Assembly (NCBI GenBank): GCA_019637395.1
Contig: JAHBVR010000020.1
Location: 62,001 to 126,000, forward strand
Direction: 5' to 3'
Length of the DNA: 64,000 nucleotides
From: Vulcanimicrobiota bacterium
GTDB lineage: Bacteria > Vulcanimicrobiota > Xenobia > Xenobiales > JADMJV01
The position numbers were made by a program, and so were the translations under genes. The notes below the pieces were generated by a model. It was not told where the DNA came from and ran no database searches. It worked only from the letters and a program-made list of their open reading frames with translations. This document shows positions 8,785 through 26,036 of the stretch, in pieces (position 1 is the stretch's first letter; each line of letters opens with the position of its first letter).

Positions 8785-8938
8785 AACCGCTATTTCCTTT
8801 CCGGTCCCGCTTGCGAAGACCAGGCAAGTCTTTCCCCAGCTGAACCAGGGGCGAACCCTGGAAGGACAGCCAGAGCGGAAAGCGCACCTCTCGGTGAGGG
8901 CTCCTGCCCTCTATTTCTTATCAAGGAGAACCACAGCC

Positions 8939-9475
8939 GTGCGTAACCTACGCGTGTTACTGGCCCTGGCGCTGGTTTCCGTGGCGACCTGGGCGGTGCC
9001 TCAATCAGGCCCGGCCATCGGCGACCACCTGCCGGCCCACCATCCCCAGCACATTACCGGCCCCGATGCGGGCACCGATACCTGCCCCGTTTGAAAGTAC
9101 GGTACCAGACCTGCGTGCCAGGTCTTCGTTAACGGACAAGACGACGCCAACACCAGGCCGCTGCTCAGCCTGCTGAGCAAAGCCTCCAAAAGCAACGAGA
9201 AAGCCGAGTTCAAGAGCTTCATTCTATTTGTGCAGGACGACGCGCAACATCTCAAGCAATTGAACGCCGCCGAGAAGGCCGACAACGTCGGACTGGCTCT
9301 GCTCAAAGGTAAAAGCGACGAAGCCATACAGGGCTATAAGATCAACACCGACCCCGGTGTAAAAAACACCGTGATCGTCTATAGCAAACGCAAAGCCACC
9401 GCGGTCTTTGTGAATTGGACACCGAAAGAGACGAATCAGTTGAACGCCGCCATAACGGCCGCAGTCAACAACTAA
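8939..9475 (+). CDS. Exported CPV-U redox selenoprotein (in-frame UGA)
   Basis: A GTG start at 8939, about ten bases after AAGGAG, gives a signal peptide (MRNLRVLLALALVSVATWA). Then follow IGDHLPAHHPQHITGPDAG, TDTCPV, an in-frame UGA at 9092-9094 (codon 52) and KYGTRPACQVFVNG, with the frame open to TAA at 9473-9475, 178 residues. The frame is CxxU, and thioredoxin-like relatives would be expected to carry CPVCKYG here, so the UGA sits on the second redox cysteine. After the UGA, FKSFILFVQDD and KNTVIVYSKRKATAVFVNW look like thioredoxin-fold strands. The gene is divergent from the other UGA gene. A hairpin 18 nt past the UGA fits a SECIS. The exact redox partner is unknown. Confidence 0.85.
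9107..9125 (+). promoter_or_regulatory. Candidate bacterial SECIS hairpin for the CPVU gene
   Basis: AGACCT (9107-9112) and AGGTCT (9120-9125) form a perfect 6-bp stem around the 7-base loop GCGTGCC. Eighteen bases separate the UGA from the loop, and the loop begins with G, both within the bacterial SECIS rules. Confidence 0.7.
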
Positions 9476-23783: not shown

Positions 23784-26036
23784 TCACTTCTCCCGCCGGT
23801 TTCCGCCCACCAGCTCGAGCCGGTTGGACATCTCGATAAAGTAGCTGAAGCGGCATTCCGCTCGCTGTCCCGGCGGCAGGGAGAGCCAGCAGAAATAGCC
23901 GGCGCCCCCTTCCAGACTGTCCCACTGCGACTCGGGACGCACTTTGCAATCGCTGCCTTCACTGGCTTGAGGCAGGGGCTCGCGCACCTGCAAGCGCACC
24001 TGCCGGGTCAGGTAGTTGCGGGCCTCGATGTGGATTTCGTGACGTAGTTGCAGAGTGCCGCCCATCAAGCCGGCGGCCTGTTCCTGGAAGGTCGGGCGGC
24101 GTGCCACGCGCACCCCGGTTTCCACCCCCATGTCCAGCAGGAAAGCTTCGCCGGCCGCCACCGGAGCCAGTTCAACACAGGCCAGATAGTCGGAGCCGAC
24201 AAACAAATCCACCGGTCCGGCCGGGAGAGCCAGGTCCGCCGGACATTCCAGCTCGACGCGGCGAAAGACGTCGTGGGTCACTTTGGGCACCACCAGCCAG
24301 TGCAGCACGGCCGGCAGTTGGCGGCGCAAGATGGGCACCGAATGGTAGCTACAGTCGCCGCGGATGGTGACGCGGGCCTGGCCGGGATAGAGCCAGTCCT
24401 GGGATTGGACGGGCCCCGGAGGGTGGTATCCGAGCGGGGGCGCTTTGCGCAGGAGCTGGTCGCCCTGCCGCTGAGCATCGGCCAGAATCTGCCGCGCCTG
24501 GGGCACGCTGTCCCGGTCTTTCCAACGGCGTAGACTGGCTTCGACGGGGGACTGGGGCAAAAGTTTGCCGCGCTCGTTTTCGCCGGCGCCGGGCAGATAG
24601 AGCAGGTCGAAAGCCAGCTGCTCCTGCGAGAGCTCCCGGGAGTAACGCCGCCCGGCCAGCGGAGAGCGTTCGGGAATCAGCGGGCCCACTCGGTATTCGA
24701 CTATCGACTCGGGTTTGCGCGGGCTGGAGGCCCCGCTCGAGCGGTCTTCCATGAGATCGCAGATATCGTTGCTGACCCGACACTGAAAAACGGGTTCGAG
24801 ACGAGTGGAGGGACGTTCGCGAACGGCCGGGCGTTGGCTGGCCAGCAATTGATGGAAGCGCTCCACCACCACTTCCGATTTGCGAACGACCAGCAGTTCC
24901 AGGTTCTGGCCGCGGCCAGCCACGAATCCGCAGGCTGCCTCGCGTTCCGCTGGCGGAATGGATGGCAGCTGACTGACCTGGAGGGTCAATTCGCGAACGT
25001 GGTCGGGGCTCAACTCTTTGAAGAGCAGGGCGGAGACTTCGGGGGGGAGGCTCATGAGCGCCACCGCCACAATCTGCAAATCACTGAGGTAGGGCGGGCG
25101 GGGCCCGAAGTCCTCCCGGTGGATGGCTCGGGGGGTTTGGGGAACCCCGTCATAATCGGAAAACAGAGCCTCGCTTTGAGGCGGCAAGGGCCGCCAGCCC
25201 GGCGTGTTCTGAACCTGGCGCCGGCCCAATCGGCGACTGGCCAGTTGTGGCACTTCAGTCCAGCGTTCGGGCTCGGCGGTGGAGACGGAGAGTTTGGCGT
25301 TGGTCCAGTCTTCTCCGCTACTCTGGCAGACCAGAGCGCGCAGCTCCAGGTCGGCCAGGCTGCAATCGCGATCGAAGCGCAGCGAATAGCCGGGAACCCA
25401 GCAGGCGCCCTCCACCTGGTAACTGAGCAGCAAGCGCAAGTGAGAGGCCTGGGCATCGGGTTTGCTGTGCAGACTGATCAGCACCGACTTGCTGAGTTCC
25501 AAAGAAACCGGAACCTGGCTGGCGGGCGCCTGGTAGAGCCGGCTTTGGAGCTCTTCCAGGCGCTGCTCCAGTTGACGGCGGCGCGGCAGCCAGGCACCCA
25601 GGGTTTTCTGGCGCAGCTCGACTACCGCCCGGCGGGCCCGTAGCGGGAATCCTTGGGGGGCCTGGGTGGCGCGCAGCACCAGCGTGCCCGGTTCCAGTTT
25701 CTGCATTTTGGCGATATCGCCATTGAGTCGCTCGAGCTGTTTTTGCAGGGCCAGGAGTTCGTGGTGGATTTGCGCCAGCTCGGGCGGATTCGTGGGCTCG
25801 GCTTTGTGGCGAGATTCGAGTTCGACGCGCAATTCGCGCGCCACCAGTCCGCCCCCGCCCTGGGGGAACTCCAGGCGGGCGCTGAGGGTGTTGTCGAGCA
25901 TGGCCAGAGGCAAGTTGTCGAGTCGCAACTGGCGGGGCCAACCTTGCGCAGGTTGGGGAATCTCCGCCAGCCGGGTGACTTGGGCTCCGCGGCGGTAGAC
26001 CGTGACGGTTTCGACCTGAGAGGTGACCATGTGCAT
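23784..26036 (-). CDS. DUF4139 protein with inserted FliG-like module
   Basis: 750 residues. The N-terminus QVETVTVYRRGAQVTRLAEI is typical of DUF4140. A coiled coil (HHELLALQKQLERLNGDIAKM) comes next, then the DUF4139 barrel (LLLSYQVEGACWVPGYSLRF, GEDWTNAKLSVSTAEPERW) and a C-terminal part with WLVVPKVTHDVFRRVELECP. Near residues 315-375 an unusual helical insert, AVALMSLPPEVSALLFKELS with VRELTLQVSQLPSIPPAERE, resembles the N-terminal armadillo-like unit of FliG. It is paired with the smaller paralogue downstream. There is no obvious signal peptide. The function of the family is not established. Confidence 0.75.
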   Translation of the reverse strand: MHMVTSQVETVTVYRRGAQVTRLAEIPQPAQGWPRQLRLDNLPLAMLDNTLSARLEFPQGGGGLVARELRVELESRHKAEPTNPPELAQIHHELLALQKQLERLNGDIAKMQKLEPGTLVLRATQAPQGFPLRARRAVVELRQKTLGAWLPRRRQLEQRLEELQSRLYQAPASQVPVSLELSKSVLISLHSKPDAQASHLRLLLSYQVEGACWVPGYSLRFDRDCSLADLELRALVCQSSGEDWTNAKLSVSTAEPERWTEVPQLASRRLGRRQVQNTPGWRPLPPQSEALFSDYDGVPQTPRAIHREDFGPRPPYLSDLQIVAVALMSLPPEVSALLFKELSPDHVRELTLQVSQLPSIPPAEREAACGFVAGRGQNLELLVVRKSEVVVERFHQLLASQRPAVRERPSTRLEPVFQCRVSNDICDLMEDRSSGASSPRKPESIVEYRVGPLIPERSPLAGRRYSRELSQEQLAFDLLYLPGAGENERGKLLPQSPVEASLRRWKDRDSVPQARQILADAQRQGDQLLRKAPPLGYHPPGPVQSQDWLYPGQARVTIRGDCSYHSVPILRRQLPAVLHWLVVPKVTHDVFRRVELECPADLALPAGPVDLFVGSDYLACVELAPVAAGEAFLLDMGVETGVRVARRPTFQEQAAGLMGGTLQLRHEIHIEARNYLTRQVRLQVREPLPQASEGSDCKVRPESQWDSLEGGAGYFCWLSLPPGQRAECRFSYFIEMSNRLELVGGNRREK

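Follow-up and report, generated by a model that had tools for sequence, protein, structure and literature searches.

A candidate family of exported CxxU selenoproteins with a predicted redoxin fold in Eremiobacterota and Armatimonadota

Introduction

Exported thiol-disulfide oxidoreductases of the ResA/TlpA type (3gl3; ResA 1st9/2h1b) carry a CxxC-type pair, which in ResA (C74/C77) starts the helix after the central strand. Redox pairs in which selenocysteine (Sec) is one of the two residues are catalogued in a recent survey of 119 prokaryotic selenoprotein (sub)families, with motifs and descriptions in its Table 1 (PMC13188914, 2026). It regards most CxxU and UxxC families as redox proteins, and the interchange of Sec and Cys is known in the peroxiredoxins (Prx). 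The SelW-like, AhpD-like and Prx-SUH entries are listed as CxxU, with Sec second of the pair; the Trx7/PDZ domain selenoprotein (NF041199) is also listed as CxxU and has a thioredoxin-like domain. The same work gives rules for the bSECIS hairpin: a loop of 3-9 nt, a G in the first two loop positions, a spacing of 16-37 nt and an energy of -7.5 kcal/mol or lower. Our literature search found no relevant paper on selenoproteins in Eremiobacterota or Armatimonadota.

Here we describe a gene in a 64,000-nucleotide stretch of DNA, referred to as the window, that had been proposed from its letters to encode an exported CPVU redox selenoprotein of a family that could not be named.

Results

An open frame continues through an in-frame UGA

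The gene at 8939-9475 (+) encodes a 178-residue precursor that starts with GTG, ends with a TAA at 9475 and has an in-frame UGA at codon 52 (9092-9094), read here as Sec. The original prediction had the frame, the UGA and the stop codon exactly right. It had also placed a Shine-Dalgarno sequence before the GTG, and a likely one, AAGGAGA, is found at 8923-8929 (+), about 9 nt upstream. The same motif precedes the ATG of the closest orthologue (L017, 87% identical), and the start at 8939 is supported because this ATG lies at the equivalent codon behind AAAGGAGA. Under translation table 11 only an 81-residue ORF (9230-9475) is called at the locus, the same fragment that had been expected if the UGA were not recoded.

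The product consists of a predicted signal peptide (MRNLRVLLALALVSVATWA-VP; 8939-8998, +), the conserved block 'GPDAGTDTCPVUKYGxRPAxQVF' and a C-terminal domain. A hydrophobic N-terminal stretch is present in all 25 members checked, in line with the signal peptide originally suggested and consistent with an exported protein; it is the lowest-confidence part of the structural model. The putative redox motif C49-P-V-U52 occupies 9083-9094 (+).

No conserved neighbour was found around 32 loci of the family, and most of the ORF clusters that are shared run antisense to the family gene or stem from closely related genomes; gene neighbourhood was therefore ruled out as a guide to function or substrate. 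Divergent from the window gene, at 8784-8398 (-), lies an exported thioredoxin-like gene with its own in-frame UGA in 'APWUGSC'. Three relatives (G136, G138 and G137) have orthologues of this gene with the UGA, and a paralogue with UGA lies at C9:83137 in the window's genome. It was rejected as a fixed partner because the orthologues in the three relatives are not beside the CPVU gene.

The window sequence alone is not decisive for recoding. The GC content is 61%, and, with the published bSECIS rules as coded in this analysis, 131 (8%) of the window's 1,638 TGA triplets are followed by a qualifying hairpin. At 36 TGAs the frame is open for 51 or more codons before the triplet and for 126 or more after it, and six of these TGAs also have a SECIS-like hairpin. 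Long open frames together with a bSECIS-like hairpin are seen at the TGAs at 24368(+), 51034(+), 55916(+), 58651(-) and 18275(-), and are probably due to chance. An Rfam search over the window gave no match.

Sec and Cys exchange at one codon in two phyla

A first scan of genome contigs gave three Eremiobacterota relatives with TGA at codon 52 and four Armatimonadota relatives with CPVC. A search of 149 genomes of the window's phylum, which was repeated with a profile, found members in eight. Seven of these belong to the window's order and carry TGA; the eighth, a Cys form, lies elsewhere in the class. The six same-order orthologues with UGA at the same codon are L017, L018, L019, L029, L030 and L031, and 12 Armatimonadota members share this UGA. 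Of 291 Armatimonadota genomes searched with the profile, 103 have the family, and TGA forms occur in 12 of these 103; the Sec-form motifs across the members of this phylum are CPVU, CPTU, CYIU, CYVU and CYRU.

We aligned 60 members, 19 with Sec (UGA) and 41 with Cys at codon 52. Homologues with CPVC exist, as had been anticipated. Relatives lacking Cys or Sec at the site would have counted against the original prediction; both motif positions carry one or the other in 60 of 60 rows, and C49, Cys/Sec52 and P58 are the only invariant positions of the alignment. The best maximum-likelihood tree has six Sec/Cys changes, at least two of which are forced by well-supported branches, and three genomes (G305, G359 and G360) hold Sec and Cys forms together. 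In comparisons of the window gene with its three closest relatives, Ka/Ks is 0.05-0.14 for the part before the UGA and 0.06-0.18 for the part that follows it, and the downstream part is therefore translated as protein in this frame. The recoding is thus supported far beyond chance, because the UGA is conserved, Cys replaces it at the same codon and, as described below, the synonymous sites that follow are frozen.

Several members deserve separate mention. The CYIU member L076 (2101-2424) has a C-terminus that departs from the family, probably through an assembly frameshift, and L081 and L082 are tandem Cys-form copies, adjacent in one genome. Similar 'LCYVC' proteins presumably also occur in planctomycetes.

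A hairpin behind the UGA is kept in Sec forms

A bSECIS-type hairpin of 7 bp with the loop CGUGC (9114-9118) is located at 9107-9125 (+). Its start 12 nt after the UGA agrees with the original prediction; to the six pairs given there RNAfold adds one G-C pair, which shifts the start of the loop from 18 to 19 nt behind the UGA. The core of 7 bp has an energy of -9.3 kcal/mol, and loop length, position of the G, spacing and energy all agree with the published rules.

All seven orthologues, and two Armatimonadota members (L069 and L077), have this hairpin at the same position and in the same register. In these nine hairpin-bearing sequences the codons of P58 (CCT), A59 (GCG) and Q61 (CAG) are identical in every case, and mean synonymous-codon identity is 0.85 over the five codons of the hairpin against 0.48 over 53 other codons. 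In the Cys orthologues examined the hairpin is not conserved and is absent. The conservation across relatives that had been foreseen is thus seen in the Sec orthologues; covariation is limited to one compensatory G-C to C-G change in L031, the 3' half of which is a synonymous Val change. This single double change is not significant, as an equally good result was obtained in 58 of 500 shuffles. Covariation is thin because the stem is almost frozen and most pairs never vary. The fold energies are 0.9-2.4 SD below those of shuffles, which is a small difference.

Other Armatimonadota Sec members have other structures. L066, L067 and L068 (genomes G212, G214 and G213, respectively) carry different, longer stems behind the UGA, that of L068 being CCTCAGGTCCAGAT/ATCTGGACCCTGAGG, and the CYxU members carry other hairpins, mostly strong.

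The genome encodes the machinery for Sec insertion

A tRNA-Sec with anticodon UCA, SelA, SelB (402 bits) and SelD are all present in the window's genome, SelA having been identified by reading the ORF beside SelB. The genes selD, selA and selB form one cluster at G000:C34:235257-239461 (-). Each of the 19 genomes that hold a Sec form has SelB, and the six SelB-less genomes among the 51 tested are all Cys-only. This association is weak on its own (Fisher p 0.07), because SelB is also present in 26 of the 32 Cys-only genomes.

The motif is predicted to lie off the canonical redoxin site

AlphaFold2 gave confident models for the window protein (pLDDT 90.7) and a distant CYRU member (pLDDT 91.4). 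The region behind the motif (9110-9472, +) is predicted to adopt a redoxin/thioredoxin-like fold, with a strand at residues 59-64, a helix at 69-85, strands at 92-97, 118-121, 143-149 and 152-158, and a final helix at 162-176. The solved structures that match best are of the ResA/DsbE/TlpA type (Z 17-19, rmsd about 2.1), followed by the Bcp/PrxQ, AhpE and Tpx peroxiredoxins. In agreement with this, hhalign against eight redoxins of the same genome gave a probability of 95.

In both models the motif sits on a short one-turn helix preceding the first core strand. The hhalign alignment pairs the CPVC block with the redoxin 'LSDxxxGK' turn ('LSDLKGK'), so that the canonical Cys position falls near N71. 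No member of the 60-row alignment has a Cys at this canonical CxxC or peroxidatic site; the CxxU lies about 20 residues earlier. We infer from the models a ResA/TlpA/peroxiredoxin-like fold whose motif would be displaced from the customary active site.

The family lies outside the named Pfam and NCBIfam families

Searches of Pfam, NCBIfam and PDB sequences with the window protein, and Pfam and NCBIfam scans of 25 members, gave no meaningful match, in agreement with the earlier view that the family could not be named. The window protein is not matched at the gathering score of PF00578 or PF08534, and AhpC-TSA is hit in one of the 25 members with an E value of 0.02. The Pfam and NCBIfam models of the catalogued selenoprotein (sub)families likewise had no meaningful match among the 25 members; for catalogued families with only a CDD or PANTHER id, or with no accession, the comparison was of the motifs and descriptions given in Table 1, which do not fit. 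We therefore call this a selenoprotein family outside the catalogue of PMC13188914. From sequence and model the protein appears to be a CxxC/CxxU thiol oxidoreductase-like protein on a redoxin fold, yet outside the redoxin families by their defining features.

Discussion

An exported selenoprotein with a redox mechanism is the best joint explanation of these data and a probable one. Its two parts differ in strength: that the gene encodes a selenoprotein is close to certain, and the redox mechanism is somewhat favoured. The first reading of the locus is supported by the Sec/Cys conservation, a hairpin conserved in the Sec but not in the Cys orthologues and a full set of Sec machinery, and the protein is most likely an exported selenol oxidoreductase. 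In the mechanism we propose, SelB with Sec-tRNA(Sec) would read the UGA as selenocysteine, directed by the hairpin 12 nt downstream, and the exported protein would then fold as a ResA/TlpA/peroxiredoxin-like domain with C49-P-V-U52 on the short helix that precedes the first core strand, instead of at the usual site. Outside the cytoplasm, the U52 selenolate would attack an oxidised substrate (a disulfide, sulfenic acid or peroxide) and C49 would resolve the adduct as a selenenyl sulfide, which a thiol partner protein would reduce again, recycling the protein.

The main rival retains the selenoprotein and dispenses with catalysis: the exported CxxU/CxxC pair would bind metal or metalloid species, such as those of Cu, Hg, As or Se, as in proteins of the SCO type. 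SCO-like proteins are known metal chaperones that use a redoxin fold, and a motif off the canonical redoxin site, in a family whose sole invariant feature besides P58 is the Cys pair, could be read in this way. We nevertheless consider it unlikely, as none of the His or Met residues that could serve as a third ligand is invariant in the 60 members, H38 being conserved in 73% only, and no conserved metal-transport neighbours were seen; the prevailing redox assignment of CxxU and UxxC families (PMC13188914) also argues against it.

Far less probable is that the UGA specifies cysteine, or some other residue, through a UCA-anticodon tRNA not charged with Sec or through near-cognate read-through. 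Cys-charged UCA tRNAs exist in some bacteria, and the protein tolerates Cys at position 52, because relatives have Cys there. Against such a reading stand the complete selD-selA-selB cluster, a tRNA called as tRNA-Sec, and a hairpin whose synonymous sites are constrained in Sec forms and which Cys forms lack. That the UGA is a true stop, leaving a short exported peptide and an unrelated ORF or a recent pseudogene, can be given hardly any weight: ordinary gene callers do give only the 81-residue ORF and comparably open frames following a TGA are no rarity in a window so rich in GC (the 36 cases above), but the UGA is kept across two phyla, Cys takes its place in 41 homologues, purifying selection acts on both sides and the predicted fold begins before the UGA and continues through it.

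The selenoprotein reading adds a family to the catalogue from two poorly studied phyla, whose Sec forms ordinary annotation would truncate or miss. As the family is present in roughly one in three of the Armatimonadota genomes examined, there are many uncharacterised, putative exported redox proteins of this kind, and the natural occurrence of Sec and Cys forms, in G305, G359 and G360 as paralogues, offers a ready test of the contribution of selenium. A bolder proposal, which we regard as evenly balanced, is that this is a large exported family in which the redoxin reactive pair has moved to the turn before the first core strand, the classical site has been emptied and Sec and Cys are interchangeable, so that it would represent a second active-site location on the thioredoxin fold. 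If the displacement of the motif holds, there is an alternative redox site on the redoxin fold.

Among described systems, the protein resembles SelW-like, AhpD-like and Prx-SUH selenoproteins in having Sec as the second residue of a CxxU; those of their families with Pfam or NCBIfam models match none of the 25 scanned members. It shares with the Trx7/PDZ domain selenoprotein a CxxU motif and a thioredoxin-like domain, whereas NF041199 is a 390-position model with a PDZ domain, and this model has no match at the locus, none over cut-off in the genome and none in the 25 members. With the Bcp/PrxQ, AhpE and Tpx peroxiredoxins it has the predicted fold class in common (Z 15-18); it differs from them and their Sec forms in being without a Cys at the peroxidatic position, in having CxxU instead of TxxU or UxxC, and, for the window protein, in having no Pfam AhpC-TSA/Redoxin match. 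It is like the ResA/TlpA type in its predicted export, its one CxxC-type pair and its predicted fold (Z 17-19, rmsd 2.0-2.1 over 135-140 residues), and unlike that type in its sequence (about 10% identity) and in having no Cys at the ResA site. The ResA pair begins the helix after the central strand, whereas the CPVU pair is placed on the turn before that strand.
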